Shown here: in pieces, positions 5,737 to 13,649 of the stretch
Position numbering within the stretch: position 1 is the first letter of the stretch
Layout: each line of letters opens with the position of its first letter
Origin: Desulfoplanes formicivorans
GTDB taxonomy: Bacteria > Desulfobacterota > Desulfovibrionia > Desulfovibrionales > Desulfomicrobiaceae
Direction of reading: 5' to 3'
Length of the DNA stretch: 64,000 bases
NCBI RefSeq assembly: GCF_001748225.1
Contig: NZ_BDFE01000015.1
Location: 549,437-613,436 of the forward strand
Notes under the pieces: model-generated
Databases searched by the model: none
Seen by the model: only the letters and a program-made list of their open reading frames with translations
What the model was told of the DNA's origin: nothing
Made by a program: the position numbers and the translations under genes

Positions 5737-7545
5737 TTAGAGTCCGTAAAAAAAGGCCAGGGCTCCGAGCATGACCACCAGATACAGGGCGGTCATGCCT
5801 GTTCCGGCCCGAACATAGTCGATGGTCCTGAACCCTCCGGGACGCATGACCAGGGCGTTGACCTGGTGGGTGGGCAGCACAAAGGTATTGGATGCGGCTA
5901 CAGCCACGGTCAGGGCGGCAATGCGGGGGTCGGCTCCGGCCCGCAGGGCCATGTTCATGGCCAGGGGCACCAGGAGCACGGTTGCGCCCACATTGGAGGC
6001 CACCAGGGTGAAGAACGAGGTCAACAGGGCGATCACCAGCATAAGGAGCATGGGGGTGGGGGTGCCCAGGGCGCCCATGATGGAATCGGCGATAAATTTG
6101 GCAGCCCCCGTGTTTTCAAAGGCCATGCCCAGGGGGATGAGTCCGCCAAGAAGGAACACCGTCATCCAGTCCACGGATTGGTAGGCCTCGTCAATGGTCA
6201 TGACCTTGGTCAGAACCATGCCCAGGGCTCCGGTCAAAAGGGCAATGGAAAGCTGGACATGGAATCCCAGGATCATGACCAGGGAGATGACCAGCCAGGC
6301 AACAGCCATTTTGGCCTTTTCCGTACGCAGGATTTCCCCCTTGACGTCTTCGGTAAAGACCATGTCGGGTTTTTCCTTGAGCAGATGGAACATTTTCCAC
6401 TGTCCGTGCAGAAGCAGGGCGTCTCCGGCCTGGAGAACAATGTCCGTGAGGCCGCTGACAAAGATTTTTTTCCCGCGAAAGATGGCCAGGGGAGAGACCT
6501 GGTAATTGCGACGGAATCCATATTCGCCCATGGTGTGCCCCACCAGTTCCGACCGGGGAGTCAGGATTCCCTCCATGATTCCGGCATTGTTCCCGGAGAG
6601 GTCTTCTCCAAAGGTGGTCAGATCCGGAAGAAGGTCCCACCCGAGATCCCTGGCCATTGATGCCACGTATTCGCGGGGTCCCACAACGGCGATGTGATCG
6701 CCGGCGCGTATTTCTTCCTGCGGGGAGGGCGCGAAGAGTTTCTGTTTGCCCTGGTCCCTGGCAATGGCCACCACCGTGGTGAAATACAGGGGGCGAAGAT
6801 CCATGTTTTTCAACGATTCCTGGCGGGTAAAATCTTCGGGGATATGGAGTTCAAAAAGGGTTCCGACCCCTTGATAGGTCGCAGCAAGGAGGCCGGACAT
6901 GGGGCCGTCGGCATCTTCATCCGCCTTGCGGACCGGAAGGATAAACCGGCCAAAGAACATGAAGTAGACAATGGCGGCCACCACCAGACAGATGCCCACC
7001 GGGGTTACGCCAAAGAGGCCAAAAGGTTCGTAATGCTTGCCCCCAACGATCATGAGGTCGTTGAGCAGGATAAGGGGGCTGGAACCCACCAGGGTCAGAC
7101 AGCCTCCGATAATGGCGCAAAAGGCCATGGGCAGCAGAATCCGTCCTACGGGAATGCGGGTCTGGGTGGCGATGCGCTTGGCTGCAGGAAGAAACAGGGC
7201 TGCGGCACCAATGTTCTGCATGAAGCCGGAGATGAAAGCCACGGTCCCGGAAATAAGGGCCATGATCCTGTTTTCACTCTTTCCCGAAAATTTGAGGATG
7301 ACCCGGGCCACGCCATTCATGACCCCGGTTTTGTCCAGTCCGGCACCAATAATGATCACGGCGATGATGGACACCACCGCATTACTGCTCAGGCCGCTGA
7401 TGGCCTGCTTGGGTGTGACCAGCCCCAAAAGGGGAAGCAGGACCATCATGATGATGCCCACGATGTCCACCCGGACCCATTCAAAAATAAACATCAAAAT
7501 GGCCAGTACGAGAACGGCCATGACGAGCATGATTTCTGGAGTCAT
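5737..7545 (-). CDS. SLC13/DASS-family permease with two TrkA-C domains
   Basis: 602 residues. Two transmembrane halves (about residues 1-190 and 390-602) flank a cytosolic insert holding two TrkA-C/RCK-C regulatory domains (about 205-290 and 300-375). Family-typical re-entrant motifs are GSSPLILLNDL in the first half and ASNVGATVLLVPLAMN in the second. Members carry divalent or oxyanions such as sulfate, or carboxylates, with Na+ or H+. In a sulfate reducer, sulfate is an attractive substrate but is inference. It is monocistronic, and the next gene on this strand is the stress protein 80 bp upstream. Confidence 0.88.
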   Translation of the reverse strand: MTPEIMLVMAVLVLAILMFIFEWVRVDIVGIIMMVLLPLLGLVTPKQAISGLSSNAVVSIIAVIIIGAGLDKTGVMNGVARVILKFSGKSENRIMALISGTVAFISGFMQNIGAAALFLPAAKRIATQTRIPVGRILLPMAFCAIIGGCLTLVGSSPLILLNDLMIVGGKHYEPFGLFGVTPVGICLVVAAIVYFMFFGRFILPVRKADEDADGPMSGLLAATYQGVGTLFELHIPEDFTRQESLKNMDLRPLYFTTVVAIARDQGKQKLFAPSPQEEIRAGDHIAVVGPREYVASMARDLGWDLLPDLTTFGEDLSGNNAGIMEGILTPRSELVGHTMGEYGFRRNYQVSPLAIFRGKKIFVSGLTDIVLQAGDALLLHGQWKMFHLLKEKPDMVFTEDVKGEILRTEKAKMAVAWLVISLVMILGFHVQLSIALLTGALGMVLTKVMTIDEAYQSVDWMTVFLLGGLIPLGMAFENTGAAKFIADSIMGALGTPTPMLLMLVIALLTSFFTLVASNVGATVLLVPLAMNMALRAGADPRIAALTVAVAASNTFVLPTHQVNALVMRPGGFRTIDYVRAGTGMTALYLVVMLGALAFFYGL

Positions 7546-8242: not shown

Positions 8243-8677
8243 GAGCCCTCCTGGTTTGGGTGTGGGAGGTTGGATGGGGCGTGCACCAACGGCTCCCTCC
8301 TGCTTGTTCTTTTTTGAACATACCCGGGTAAACCAAGGATTGTGCCAAATTCTTTTTCTCTTTAACCATTTGAAAATAAAAGATAATTTTTATTGTGCAA
8401 TCAGGGAACACAAGGGCTGTTGCGACATGCAACGGTTTTTGCGTTGAGAAGGCATGGCTAAGCTGTCGAAAAACAAGAGAATATAAAAAAGTCTGGGATC
8501 GGAGGAACATGTTGCGTTTTGCATCGGTGCAACAGTGGGCAGAAGAAAAAAAGCATGCAAGACCATGCAAAAAACGGTAGGTGGTTACGGGTTTTTTGTG
8601 AAATCGACCACGCGGGGAGCTGCTGTTTCCTGATGGGTTGCAACACCACCAACCTCTTTGCCAACGGCAGGTGCTTC
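8243..8677. promoter_or_regulatory. intergenic control region of the Lon-receiver gene with GTTGC/GCAAC palindromes
   Basis: This divergent 435 bp gap has an AT-rich stretch at 8350-8400 suited to a promoter. It also has three inverted GTTGC/GCAAC pairs: 8419-8433 (GTTGCGACATGCAAC), 8511-8533 (arms 13 bases apart) and 8637-8644 (GTTGCAAC). I found no convincing sigma-54 GG-N10-GC element. The palindromes may be sites for the NtrC-type regulator encoded at 10832. Confidence 0.35.
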
Positions 8678-10741
8678 ATGTTTTTCAAGAAAAAGACACC
8701 GTCCACTGAACAATCCGAGGCTTGTGAATCTGCGTCTGCGGAACAGCCGGCTCCCGAGATGCCCGGGTATCTGCAGGAATTGCGGGATCGCATCACAGCC
8801 CAGGATCTTCCGGCCATGGTCAGGGAAACCGCCCAGCTGGAATGGGAGCGTTTAACCGGTATGGACCGGTCTGCACCGGAGTCCGGCATAAGCATCAATT
8901 ACCTCGAGTTCCTGCTTTCGCTGCCCTGGAAGGCGGTCACCCGGGACAACCTGGATCTCAACCGTGCGGCAACCATTCTCAAATCCCGACATCTTGGCCT
9001 GGATGCCATCCATGAACGGATTCTGGAATTTCTGGCCGTGAAAACATTGATCGGCAGGCAGCGTCCAACCATCCTTGTGGTGGATGATGAAGAGATCGCC
9101 CGGACCAATCTGGCCTATGTGCTTGAAAAGGACGGATATGACGTTTCCATGGCACAAAACGGACTTGAGGCCGTATATTATATGGATAAGCAGCCTGCGG
9201 ACATCGTGATCACGGATCTGAAGATGGAGCGCATGGACGGCATTCAGTTGCTGGGAACGATCCGGAAACAATGGCCGGATACCAGTGTGATCATGATTAC
9301 CGGGTATGCCACGGTGGATACGGCGGTTACGGCCCTGCAAAAGGGCGCGGATCATTACTTGAGCAAGCCGGTCAATCTGACCAAGCTCCGGGAACAGGTG
9401 CGCACCTTGATGGAGGCCAGGGAACGGGCCTCGCATCTGCATGGTCCGGTACTCTGTTTTACCGGCCCTCCGGGTACGGGCAAGACATCCATCGGACGGG
9501 CCATTGCCGAGGCGCTGGAACGCAAATTTGTCCGCTTTTCCCTGGCCGGTCTCAAGGATGAAGCCGAACTGCGAGGTCATCGCAGGACCTATGTGGGGGC
9601 CATGGCCGGGCGGATTCTTCTGGAAATCCAGAAGGTCGGAGTGCGCAATCCCGTGATCATGCTCGATGAAATGGACAAGACCATCCAGGATTTCAGGGGA
9701 GATGCCGTCTCTGTTTTTCTGGAAGTTCTGGACCCGGAACAGAATGCATCCTTTGTTGACCATTATCTGGATATCCCCTTTGATCTTTCCCAGGTGATGT
9801 TCATTGCCACGGCCAACATGGCGGAAAATCTGCCCGCACCTCTGCTTGACCGCATGGAGGTGATCGAATTTTCCAGCTATACGTACAGGGAAAAAGAGGC
9901 CATTGCCCGCCAGTTTCTTGTCCCTGCCCAGCTCAAGCGTCACGGCTTGACCACGCAGGATGTCCGGCTGACCGATGAAGGGGTGCGTTCCCTGATCAGG
10001 GGATATACCCGTGAAGCCGGACTTCGCGGGCTGGAACGCAAGATCGCGGATGTGTGTCGCAAGATCGCCCGACAGCGTGTGGACCGTCAGGAAGCCGATT
10101 CAAACGTTCCGGTTGTGCTTGATGAAGAGCGTATCATTGCCTTGCTGGGGGCGCCTTTGTTCACCCAGACCCGCGCTCTTTCGGCCCCCCGCGTCGGCAT
10201 GGCCACGGGCCTTGTATGGACCGCCACCGGTGGAGAAATCATTTTTGTGGAAGTGGCCAGGATGAAGGGAAGCAAACAGCTTTTGCTGACAGGTTCCCTG
10301 GGAGATGTGCTCAGGGAATCAGCCCAGGCGGCCCTCAGCTATCTTCGCAGCAACGCGGCCATGTACCATATTGATCCGGGATTTTTCGATGTTTCGGATA
10401 TCCATATCCATCTGCCGTCCGGAGGGGTGAGCAAGGATGGGCCGTCGGCAGGAGTAACCATTTTCGTGGCCCTGCTTTCCCTGTTGACGGGCCGGGCCGT
10501 GCGCCAGGATGTGGCCGTGAGCGGTGAATTGACACTCCTTGGGGATGTCCTGCCCGTGGGAGGTATCCGGGAAAAGGTGCTGGCTGCGTCCCAGGCCGGG
10601 ATCAGACAGCTTGTTTTTCCGCGGAAAAACAAGGCGGAAATCGAGGCCCTGGATGCCGATGTGGTGCAGGATCTGGAGATTGTGCTGGCTGACGAGGTGG
10701 GCGAGTTTGCCAAGGTGGCTCTGGTGCAGGAGGGGAGCTAG
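8678..10741 (+). CDS. Lon-type ATP-dependent protease with internal receiver domain
   Basis: 687 residues from ATG 8678 (CAGGTG upstream; a longer ORF from 8519 lacks this support). Order: a short helical Lon-like segment (about 25-120), a complete response-regulator receiver (about 127-247; acidic DD136-137, phosphoacceptor Asp180 in ITDLKM, Lys230 in LSKP), the Lon AAA+ module (Walker A GPPGTGKT 263-270, Walker B MLDEMDK 328-334) and the S16 protease with Ser590 in KDGPSAG and Lys633 in GGIREK. The canonical N-terminal substrate-binding LAN domain is missing and the receiver sits before the ATPase. It converges on an NtrC regulator and kinase; phosphorylation-gated proteolysis is inferred. 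Confidence 0.93.
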   Translation: MFFKKKTPSTEQSEACESASAEQPAPEMPGYLQELRDRITAQDLPAMVRETAQLEWERLTGMDRSAPESGISINYLEFLLSLPWKAVTRDNLDLNRAATILKSRHLGLDAIHERILEFLAVKTLIGRQRPTILVVDDEEIARTNLAYVLEKDGYDVSMAQNGLEAVYYMDKQPADIVITDLKMERMDGIQLLGTIRKQWPDTSVIMITGYATVDTAVTALQKGADHYLSKPVNLTKLREQVRTLMEARERASHLHGPVLCFTGPPGTGKTSIGRAIAEALERKFVRFSLAGLKDEAELRGHRRTYVGAMAGRILLEIQKVGVRNPVIMLDEMDKTIQDFRGDAVSVFLEVLDPEQNASFVDHYLDIPFDLSQVMFIATANMAENLPAPLLDRMEVIEFSSYTYREKEAIARQFLVPAQLKRHGLTTQDVRLTDEGVRSLIRGYTREAGLRGLERKIADVCRKIARQRVDRQEADSNVPVVLDEERIIALLGAPLFTQTRALSAPRVGMATGLVWTATGGEIIFVEVARMKGSKQLLLTGSLGDVLRESAQAALSYLRSNAAMYHIDPGFFDVSDIHIHLPSGGVSKDGPSAGVTIFVALLSLLTGRAVRQDVAVSGELTLLGDVLPVGGIREKVLAASQAGIRQLVFPRKNKAEIEALDADVVQDLEIVLADEVGEFAKVALVQEGS

Positions 10742-10778
10742 CCGGGGAATTGCAGGGGGCGTGGGCCCCATGGATCTG

Positions 10779-10819
10779 ACGCCCGTTTTCACGTGCATGG
10801 CCATGGTGGAAACGGGCGT
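10779..10819. terminator. hairpin between convergent genes
   Basis: ACGCCCGTTTTCAC pairs with GTGGAAACGGGCGT (one G-U pair) between the Lon stop and the regulator stop. No clear U tract follows on either strand, so it may act as a bidirectional transcription barrier or as 3'-end protection. Confidence 0.6.
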
Positions 10820-10831
10820 TGTGCATGGTGG

Positions 10832-12193
10832 TTACACGCATTCCTTTTCAACGTGCAACCGTTTGAGCTTGCGCCACAAGGAAACCCGGTCGATGCCCAA
10901 AATGGCGGCAGCCCGGGTCTTGTTGCCCCCAACAGCGGCAAGAATGTCAGCAATATAGTGGCGCTCCATTTCCTCCAGGGTCATGAGGTGGGATGTTTTC
11001 GTGTCCTGGAGGGACGCTGACCGGGTGCGCACTTCCTCGGGCAGGAGGTCCGGAGTGAATGTTTCGCCCGCTCCCAGGGCCAGGGCCCTTTCCACTATAT
11101 TTTCCAATTCACGGACATTGCCTGGAAAACTGTAGTTTTCCAGGGCCTCCAGGGTGTCCTGGGCGATGCGAGTGATCCTGTGCTGTTTGGTGGCGTGTTT
11201 TTCCAGAAAATAATTGAGGAGCAAGGGGAGATCGGCCTTGCGTTCCCGCAGCGGGGGCACGGTCAGGGTGACCACATTGAGACGATAGAAAAGATCCCGG
11301 CGAAAGGCCCCCTTGTCCACCAGGGCGGCCAGGTTGCAATTGGTCGCTGCCACCACCTGGATATCCAGGGAAATTTCCCTGGTTCCTCCCACGCGGATGA
11401 AGGTCCGCTCCTGAAGGACCCTGAGGAGCTTGACCTGCAAGTGCAGGGGCAGTTCACCCACTTCATCGAAAAAAACCACTCCCTTGTTGGCAACCTCCAG
11501 CAGGCCGGGCTGTCCCTTGCCTGCCCCGGTGAAGGCCTCGCGTTCGTGCCCGAAAAGCTCCTTGTCCATGAGTTCTTCGGTAAAGGTTCCGCAATTGATG
11601 GCCATGAACCGTTCATCGCAGCGCGGGCTCAGTTTGTGGATGCCCTTGGCCACCAACTCCTTGCCCGTGCCGGTTTCTCCCTGGATGAGCACGTTGCAAC
11701 CCATCAGGGCCACCTGCCGGATTTTGGTTTTCAACGAGGCCATGGCCGGGCTTTGTCCGATGATGGGCAGGGGGTCCCGGGTGGCCTTCAGGGATTGGCG
11801 AAGAACAATGACCTCGGCCGACAAAGCCCTTTTTTCCAGGGCCCGCTCCACATGAACCCGGAGCTCGTCCAGATTGATGGGTTTCTCGATGTAGGTATAG
11901 GCTCCCTTGCGCATGGCTTCCACCGCCGTGCTCACGGAAGAATAGCCGGTAATGAGAATCATCTCGGTGGTGGGGCTCAGGGTGCGTACCTGCTCGAGCA
12001 GGGCTATGCCCGAGATGCCCGGCATCTTGAGATCCGAGATGACAAGATCATAGTCGTTGTTGCGCAGCAGCTTCAAAGCCTGTTCGCCTGAAGAGGCCAC
12101 ATCCGTGACATGGCCGTCCTTGCCAAGGGCATGGCAGAGATTTTCCCGGGCTATGGCTTCATCGTCAACGATGAGGATGCGTGTGCTGTTCAT
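10832..12193 (-). CDS. NtrC-family sigma-54-dependent response regulator
   Basis: 453 residues: a receiver (phospho-Asp54 in VISDLKMP, Lys in IEKP), an AAA+ central domain with Walker A GETGTGKE and Walker B VVFFDEVGE, then a Fis-type helix-turn-helix ending GNKTRAAAILGIDRVSLWRK. The sigma-54 contact loop reads EAFTGA instead of the usual GAFTGA (HEREAFTGAGKG). It overlaps the upstream kinase gene by 29 bases, making a classical kinase-regulator pair. The convergent Lon-receiver gene shares the same receiver class, so all three probably belong to one signalling unit. Confidence 0.95.
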   Translation of the reverse strand: MNSTRILIVDDEAIARENLCHALGKDGHVTDVASSGEQALKLLRNNDYDLVISDLKMPGISGIALLEQVRTLSPTTEMILITGYSSVSTAVEAMRKGAYTYIEKPINLDELRVHVERALEKRALSAEVIVLRQSLKATRDPLPIIGQSPAMASLKTKIRQVALMGCNVLIQGETGTGKELVAKGIHKLSPRCDERFMAINCGTFTEELMDKELFGHEREAFTGAGKGQPGLLEVANKGVVFFDEVGELPLHLQVKLLRVLQERTFIRVGGTREISLDIQVVAATNCNLAALVDKGAFRRDLFYRLNVVTLTVPPLRERKADLPLLLNYFLEKHATKQHRITRIAQDTLEALENYSFPGNVRELENIVERALALGAGETFTPDLLPEEVRTRSASLQDTKTSHLMTLEEMERHYIADILAAVGGNKTRAAAILGIDRVSLWRKLKRLHVEKECV

Positions 12194-13649
12194 GGGCGGT
12201 ATCTTTGGCAGCGCCGGTGCTGTCGGTTTGGGCCATGGGCAGGTTGATGAGAAAGCAGGTGCCCTGACCAGGCGTACTGGTGACGCTTATGGTGCCGTTG
12301 TGCTTCTTGATGATGCCGTAGGCAACAGAAAGGCCCAGGCCCGTGCCGTTGCCCACATCCTTGGTGGTATAAAAGGGATCAAAGATGCGGTCCAGATGTT
12401 CCGGTGAAACGCCCGAGCCTGTATCGCAGACAGTGATGAGGGCCCGATCGTTCCGGGCTTCGGCCTTGATGGTAATGGTGCCCGTGTCCGGTTCTATGGC
12501 CTGAATGGCGTTCATGATCATGTTCAGAAACACCTCGTGCATGCGCTGGCGGTCAAGGAGCAGACGCATGTCCCGGGGGATGTGGTGCACAAGGGAAATG
12601 TTTGAGGGGAGTTGACTGGAAATGAGTTTGATGGCCGTTTCCACGGTTTCGTGCAGTCTGGTGGGGGCGATGGAAAATTCCTGATGCCTGGAGAATTCCA
12701 GGAGTCCCTTGACAATGTCCCGGGCGCGGTTGGTTTCCTGCTCGATATTGTGGAGCAGTTTGCCTGCAAAGGGATCTGCGTCCTTGGAGTTGGATTCTTC
12801 CACAAGGATCTGGCACGATGTGGAGATGTTGTTCAGGGGGTTATTGAGCTGGTGGGCAATGCCCGAGGTCAATGTCCCCAGGGAGGAGAGCTTGCGAGCC
12901 TGAACAAGCTGATTCTGTCGGGTTTCCAGTTCCGTGACCATGGAATTGAAGGCCATGATGACCCGCTGGATTTCGTCATGGGTATTGGCAATCTGCAACG
13001 GCGTGAATTTTCCCTGCCCAATGGCCCGGGAAGCGTCTTCCACCAGCTTGAGGGGGGCAATGACCTGTTTGGTGACAAAAACAATGAGGACAATGACCAA
13101 CAGCAGGGCCACAAGGATGGATAAGAGGATGTTGTGCCTGATGGTGGTATTGATGCGCACGATGTCGTTACGTTCAAACCGGGTTATTTCCTTGGACTGG
13201 GCCACCAGGTTCTGCCCGCTTTCACGCAGTTGGGCGGCAAAGGCCTCAACCTGATCCTGGGGAATGGTCTGTTCACAGATGGCCTGAAGGAGCGCACCGT
13301 ATTTTTCCAGCTCGTGCTGCAAACCCGCAATGCGGGTCCCGATATCCCGCTGGGCGTGCAGAGAACCCGACAGGGAATTGAGCAGTTTGAGTCCCTTTTG
13401 AATGTAGGTCTGGCTCTCCTTGATGCATGAGGGGTTGCCGTACAGAAAATAGTTTTTTTCCAGCCGTCGGATTTCCAGGATCACGTTACTGAAATCATCC
13501 GCTTTTTCCACAAGCATGATCTTGTTTTCCACCTTGACGATATTGGCATAGGAAAGGGCGGCTATTCCTCCGAAGCAGAGGGAAAACAGGATCATGCCGA
13601 TGATGATTTTCTGGCGGATGTTGAGCTGGATACGGATGTTTTTGAACAT
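12165..13649 (-). CDS. membrane sensor histidine kinase (HAMP, HisKA, HATPase)
   Basis: 494 residues: transmembrane helix about 13-35, a helical periplasmic sensor domain about 36-170, a second membrane helix about 172-195, HAMP, then the dimerisation domain with His266 in SGIAHQLNNPLNN and an HATPase domain (N box NMIMNAIQA, G boxes CDTGSGVSP and GNGTGLGLS). The residue after the phospho-His is Gln rather than the common Glu (HQLNNP versus HELNNP). It translates into the NtrC-type regulator with a 29-base overlap. The ligand is unknown; the Lon link suggests envelope or protein stress, as inference only. Confidence 0.93.
   Translation of the reverse strand: MFKNIRIQLNIRQKIIIGMILFSLCFGGIAALSYANIVKVENKIMLVEKADDFSNVILEIRRLEKNYFLYGNPSCIKESQTYIQKGLKLLNSLSGSLHAQRDIGTRIAGLQHELEKYGALLQAICEQTIPQDQVEAFAAQLRESGQNLVAQSKEITRFERNDIVRINTTIRHNILLSILVALLLVIVLIVFVTKQVIAPLKLVEDASRAIGQGKFTPLQIANTHDEIQRVIMAFNSMVTELETRQNQLVQARKLSSLGTLTSGIAHQLNNPLNNISTSCQILVEESNSKDADPFAGKLLHNIEQETNRARDIVKGLLEFSRHQEFSIAPTRLHETVETAIKLISSQLPSNISLVHHIPRDMRLLLDRQRMHEVFLNMIMNAIQAIEPDTGTITIKAEARNDRALITVCDTGSGVSPEHLDRIFDPFYTTKDVGNGTGLGLSVAYGIIKKHNGTISVTSTPGQGTCFLINLPMAQTDSTGAAKDTAHEQHTHPHR

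Follow-up and report, generated by a model that had tools for sequence, protein, structure and literature searches.

A Receiver Domain inside the AAA+ Module of a Lon Protease from Desulfoplanes formicivorans and Its Probable Control by a Neighbouring Kinase

Introduction

In D. vulgaris, Rajeev et al. (2011) described a 'three-component system' that consists of DVU3303, a response regulator containing Lon, the kinase DVU3304 and the sigma54-dependent regulator DVU3305 (PMC3333781). DVU3305 regulates its own operon together with DVU3302-3298, which encode membrane and UspA-type proteins (PMC3333781), and a sigma54 study gives the same targets (PMC4641369). In a 2023 mutant study the pairwise cofitness among DVU3303-3305 exceeded 0.9, all three were detrimental in chlorate, and a target of DVU3305, the anion transporter DVU3299, was needed in that condition (PMC10102598); the cofitness could be due in part to polar insertions if the genes form one operon, as that paper implies. 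Proteases of this kind, here called REC-Lon, have been noted beyond the Desulfobacterota in T. yellowstonii, Thioalkalivibrio and Dechloromonas (PMC3333781). In the open-access literature we found no phosphotransfer or protease assay and no structure for REC-Lon.

Parts of REC-Lon resemble better-known machines. In the NtrC-family regulators a directly attached receiver controls an AAA+ ring. REC-Lon also has a receiver joined directly to an AAA+ ATPase, but as an internal insert, and its output is proteolysis rather than sigma54 remodelling. CpdR and RssB are receivers that steer an ATP-dependent protease, as the receiver of REC-Lon is proposed to do, but they are stand-alone adaptor polypeptides acting on ClpXP, whereas REC-Lon carries its receiver within the protease chain. 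With LonA (E. coli, M. taiwanensis, T. thermophilus) REC-Lon shares the AAA+ and S16 core, all the catalytic motifs and part of the helical linker; it differs in having neither the LAN domain nor most of the coiled coil and in the presence of a receiver before the Walker-A strand. The M. taiwanensis Lon core, deprived of its N-terminal domain, degrades a disordered substrate but does not efficiently degrade an unfolded one (PMC8087443), behaviour that fits REC-Lon as an enzyme with narrow clients.

The locus described here lies in a 64,000-nucleotide stretch of D. formicivorans DNA (contig NZ_BDFE01000015.1, positions 549,437 to 613,436), referred to as the window. As in DVU3303-3305, a REC-Lon, a kinase and a sigma54 regulator occur together (8678-13649), and the sequence shows an adjacent UspA/anion-transporter operon with a predicted sigma54 promoter, the counterpart of the operon that DVU3305 targets. 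Unlike the D. vulgaris gene series, the Lon gene of the window is convergent with the NtrC-kinase pair, and the divergent operon is shorter, comprising a Usp-like gene and a permease gene. The window protein shares 56-59% identity with REC-Lon relatives from Desulfovibrio MAGs; DVU3303 itself was matched by description. The novelty that the original prediction implied for this arrangement is lost, since it was published in 2011 (PMC3333781). What is added here, as far as we found, is the detail of the insertion, a promoter architecture of two palindromes at fixed distances and, most importantly, a C-terminal tail on neighbouring proteins.

Results

Domain make-up of REC-Lon

The features of the locus are collected in Table 1. 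Pfam matches the product to Response_reg (residues 132-241, E 1.6e-31), AAA (259-398, E 2.8e-22), Lon_lid (420-472) and Lon_C (482-683, E 5.4e-73), and NCBIfam places it above cut-off as endopeptidase La. The residues expected of a response regulator are all present (the acidic pair Asp136/137, the phosphoacceptor Asp180, Thr208 and Lys230), as are Walker A (263-271), the Walker B Asp-Glu pair (330-331), the sensor and the arginine finger of the AAA+ module, and the Ser590-Lys633 dyad of the peptidase. The expectation that the catalytic elements of both modules would be intact, with 43 residues between the members of the dyad, is therefore borne out by Pfam and by alignment. The LAN domain is indeed gone: LON_substr_bdg (PF02190) found no Pfam match in the 687 residues, and the alignment with a canonical Lon begins at residue ~283 of the latter. 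To judge from its sequence, REC-Lon is an S16/Lon-core protease (MEROPS S16, endopeptidase La) and not a canonical LonA, for which the N-terminal LAN domain is typical. The genome encodes two canonical-length Lons in addition. Most REC-Lons start with M-x-FF-K/R-K (8678-8695 in the window), followed by a disordered linker; this start possibly makes contact with the membrane or with a partner.

Table 1. Features of the REC-Lon locus in window coordinates (strand. = palindrome)
Feature	Coordinates	Strand	Remarks
CitMHS/SLC13-type anion permease with TrkA_C domains	5737..7545	-	second gene of divergent operon; CitMHS E 9.3e-79
Usp-like protein, 205 aa	7625..8242	-	first gene of divergent operon; C-terminus IPVYSRVSLRVG, candidate weak tail
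Predicted sigma54 promoter TGGCACAATCCTTGG	8333..8347	-	toward Usp-like gene; one mismatch to TGGCA-n6-TTGC; position relative to palindromes conserved
Palindrome 1 GTTGCGACATGCAAC, predicted enhancer site	8419..8433	.	exact GTTGC-n5-GCAAC; conserved across loci
Palindrome 2 GTTGCGTTTTGCATC	8511..8525	.	one mismatch; 85-93 bp from palindrome 1, spacing conserved
REC-Lon protease, 687 aa	8678..10741	+	ATG start; Pfam, NCBIfam, canonical-Lon alignment, AF2 model
REC-Lon N-terminal tail; helical linker and first AAA+ helix			residues 1-28; residues 29-127
REC-Lon receiver insert	9059..9436	+	residues 128-253; Asp180 codon 9215-9217
REC-Lon AAA+ and lid			residues 254-472
REC-Lon S16 peptidase	10121..10726	+	residues 482-683; Ser590 10445-10447, Lys633 10574-10576
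NtrC-type sigma54 activator	10832..12193	-	Pfam: receiver, Sigma54_activat, Fis-type HTH; EAFTGA loop
Membrane sensor histidine kinase	12165..13649	-	Pfam: HAMP, HisKA, HATPase_c; 29-base overlap with NtrC gene

It had been proposed that the receiver stands in place of the substrate-binding domain. That a Lon carries a receiver and has no LAN domain is correct, but alignments with canonical Lon and with PDB entries show a different arrangement. In a canonical Lon of this genome the counterparts of residues 30-127 are 283-380, and that of residue 254 is 381; segments 251-344 and 351-776 of T. thermophilus Lon likewise flank the insert. On these alignments the receiver is additional to the canonical architecture, ~126 residues inserted into the AAA+ module after its first helix and before the Walker-A strand. 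In a separate deletion the N-terminus has lost ~280 residues, which comprise LAN and the greater part of the coiled coil. The length between fixed points on either side of the insert is 130 in 54 of 57 REC-Lons. An AF2 monomer model (pLDDT 79.9, pTM 0.68), to which the closest folds are Lon structures, contains a helix at 109-127 and a receiver from 131, the helix 5 of which (234-254) continues straight into strand 258-262 and on to the P-loop. In a monomer model with a pLDDT of ~80, this continuity suggests a route by which the receiver may be coupled to the ATPase.

Conservation and spread

With a query that spans the junction, full REC-Lon was found in 48 of the 395 genomes sampled from the phylum, a lower bound; two further genomes (L289 and L290) have copies that are split or run into a contig end. 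The aligned set of 57 sequences, nine of them from loci on GTDB contigs, represents at least 37 genera. Asp136, Asp180 and Lys230 are invariant in all 57, so that loss of the acidic pocket among homologues, which would have spoken against a working receiver, was not seen. Ser590 and Lys633 are kept in each of the 56 sequences in which the column is filled, and the pore-loop Tyr305, the sensor Asn380 and Arg392 are also invariant. REC-Lon is widespread, and in it a two-component signal is apparently wired directly into a proteolytic machine, with no separate adaptor. An apparent receiver-spanning match in lon2 of plasmid CP031588 was rejected, as this protein is of the canonical type, with a LAN domain but no receiver. 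In L290 (7479-9498) the REC-Lon reading frame is broken close to the junction of receiver and AAA, giving two frames that overlap; the cause is an assembly error, or the copy is a pseudogene.

Receiver kinship and the neighbouring kinase

The NtrC-type regulator and the kinase are encoded convergently to the Lon gene, as had been described. Both were seen within the fetched flank of 43 of the 57 REC-Lon loci; the pair was not seen in the fetched flank of the other 14, some of which are contig ends. The EAFTGA sigma54 loop of the window NtrC recurs in 21 of 43 orthologs scored. In the H-box of the kinase, HQLNNPL, the phospho-His is followed by Gln rather than by the usual acidic residue, and this is so in 32 of 40 orthologs scored.

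Among the 60 receivers of the genome those of Lon and NtrC are mutual best matches, with 47% identity; the next-best match of the Lon receiver is at 41% and that of the NtrC receiver at 40%. The alpha1 helix of a receiver contributes to kinase pairing. Eight of 14 alpha1 positions, with the signature IAR-x-NL, are common to the two receivers, compared with six of 14 for the best of the 58 others, and DDExIAR-x-NL is usual in both receivers across loci. Covariation between the two receivers from locus to locus is weak and phylogenetically confounded, and was dropped as proof of a shared kinase. The suggestion that a single kinase serves both a transcription factor and a protease fared better than the accompanying claims of LAN replacement and novelty: the mutual-best receivers, the resemblance in alpha1, the recurrence of the gene pair and the cofitness of DVU3303-3305 support it, but because covariation is weak these sequence comparisons do not prove it.

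The divergent operon and its promoter

A transporter gene of the SLC13 or TauE/SafE type is present in 47 of the 57 REC-Lon loci and is divergent and upstream in 45. The Usp-like protein of the window had no Pfam match; it is weakly similar to its Usp-like counterparts at other loci, and one of these falls just under the Usp cut-off. By itself, the TGGCA-n6-TTGC pattern occurs in the window at chance level. In 31 of the 57 loci, however, the elements follow one another in the same order: ~93 bp separate the sigma54 site from palindrome 1, and palindrome 2 comes after a further ~88 bp. This order arose 0 times in 30 rounds of first-order Markov shuffles. For the window and its nearest relative the corresponding spacings are 86 bp and 92-93 bp. 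A genome search for the palindrome pair with a loose pattern gave five matches, the REC-Lon locus being one of them. The position and conservation of the palindromes suggest that NtrC binds them, in which case its targets in the window would be the Usp-like protein and the CitMHS permease.

Other genes are met on the divergent side. In L010, L012 and L134 the gene beyond TauE encodes a ~268-residue protein (ITISRGSYSRGKEVAE...) which to the eye has the look of a cytidylate-kinase-like P-loop protein. A helical module, AxAFAEAGExxxA, recurs in the divergent operon (L139, L144, L282-L293 and others) as a ~56-residue protein, at the N-terminus of the Usp-like protein or fused to the small membrane protein; in its stand-alone form it matched no Pfam family.

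A proposed mechanism and its alternatives

We think it probable that REC-Lon is an ATP-dependent Lon and that phosphorylation of the receiver inserted in its AAA+ module most likely governs its activity. The kinase would phosphorylate two outputs, the NtrC-type regulator and Asp180 of Lon, and the regulator would activate the divergent sigma54 operon, with its Usp-like and anion permease genes, through the two palindromic enhancers. Because helix 5 of the receiver runs into the Walker-A strand, phosphorylation would most likely alter ring assembly or the rate of ATP hydrolysis through this junction. The clients of Lon would then be few, and plausibly encoded in the same operon. The proposal builds on domain make-up, insertion point, active-site conservation, receiver kinship and gene and promoter architecture, all established by sequence and computation, and on the regulator targets and cofitness published for D. 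vulgaris; that phosphate is passed to Lon, which way this shifts its activity and which proteins are its clients we infer. In D. vulgaris the Lon and kinase mutants have phenotypes of the same sign, which, with the caveat of polarity within the operon, argues against a simple negative feedback.

A different role for the receiver would be recruitment, in the manner of CpdR and RssB for ClpXP, with its phosphorylation state selecting the client or adaptor that docks at the ring entrance while the ATPase and peptidase are unchanged. The absence of the usual recognition domain, the location of the receiver, by homology, on the side of the AAA+ module where substrates enter, and the presence of the tail described below on operon proteins only beside REC-Lon all favor such a role. 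We nevertheless consider it unlikely, though a serious contender, since the rigid connection of helix 5 to the Walker-A strand and the fixed length of the insert suggest a tighter coupling than docking needs. Two further possibilities would assign proteolysis or signalling a lesser part. The Lon receiver might be a phosphate sink, or be driven by a small phosphodonor, and so tune the kinase-NtrC pathway with proteolysis as a secondary matter. The signature shared by the two receivers would permit competition for the kinase, but a sink has no need of a complete and invariant AAA+ and peptidase core, and this possibility seems to us quite improbable. Still less probable is a fused remnant with no signalling function, which the two canonical-length Lons available for housekeeping would allow; a remnant would decay, and Asp136, Asp180 and Lys230 have not changed in any of the 57 proteins.

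C-terminal tails on neighbouring proteins

The divergent operon of many lineages comprises genes for a helical protein of ~56 residues, a Usp-like protein, a small membrane protein and TauE. When the membrane protein is encoded beside REC-Lon it bears a basic C-terminal extension that ends in RPRPRLRLNA, RPRARLRMSA, RPRVRATLNA or RPRAYAYINPFHKI. Where the membrane protein and TauE occur without an adjacent REC-Lon, the protein stops 2-8 residues past its core in 10 loci and, in six loci of one genus, has another ending, of the APAPRLDTTAVVHG type. An extension of at least 20 residues with RP near its end is present in 33 of 33 proteins beside REC-Lon and in 1 of 16 otherwise (Fisher 1e-11, a value that overstates independence because the absence of REC-Lon represents only 2-3 evolutionary events). 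Scored by length alone, the extension is present in 33 of 33 and 6 of 16, respectively. It was in REC-Lon loci that the tail was first noticed; loci for comparison were added later, and the final scoring rule was set after both had been seen; L010 and L125 are probably one genome. On the TauE tree the absence of REC-Lon corresponds to three changes, two of which are forced by supported branches. When tail and Lon adjacency were compared on this tree by independent pairs, the 2-3 events available were too few to reach significance.

Similar endings (RPRPRVYKT, RPRPSLKA, NRPELRL) are found on an unrelated small protein. The tail of this protein separates the two groups less cleanly, in that locus L319, without REC-Lon, has QPELKRLVAREV. 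In three genomes the membrane protein is tail-less and REC-Lon is encoded at another locus, where its small-protein neighbours end in NRPELRL, NRPSIDL/NRPELRV or NRPNLRV. The lineage of the window has neither this small protein nor the membrane protein; its Usp-like protein ends in IPVYSRVSLRVG and those of relatives in IPVYTRATLRAK, while other Usp-like proteins end, for example, in IPVYAVSSVA. In the window itself the tail is weak.

On the basis of only 2-3 independent evolutionary events, the basic tail may be a degron or a docking tag. A degron is plausible because C-terminal degrons for Lon are established, among them the five-residue degron of a small Lon activator (PMC11986505, PMC10665427). 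LarA, a small stress protein whose last residues are bound by Lon, would be comparable to the candidate tail proteins (PMC10665427, PMC11986505), with the differences that such degrons act on canonical Lon, probably via the N-terminal domain that REC-Lon lacks, and that tails of the RPRPRLRLNA type are unlike them. Alternatively, the tail may be a docking site that holds Lon at the membrane or the transporter and is not degraded. A more specific proposal, which we put forward tentatively and with more doubt than confidence, is that REC-Lon has a dedicated client tag, the basic tail (RPRPRLRLNA, RPRPRVYKT, RPRAYAYINPFHKI and variants) on unrelated proteins of the kinase-controlled operon. The kinase would then order both the synthesis of these proteins and their phosphorylation-gated docking or destruction, with a private tag replacing LAN-based recognition. 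If the tag is real, REC-Lon would be a phospho-switchable, tag-specific protease.

The six loci with the APAPRLDTTAVVHG-type ending (L276-L281) belong to genus g3, in the family of the REC-Lon carriers g2 and g4. They retain the kinase, NtrC, TauE and the membrane protein with no adjacent REC-Lon, and their tail looks as if it had drifted after REC-Lon was lost.
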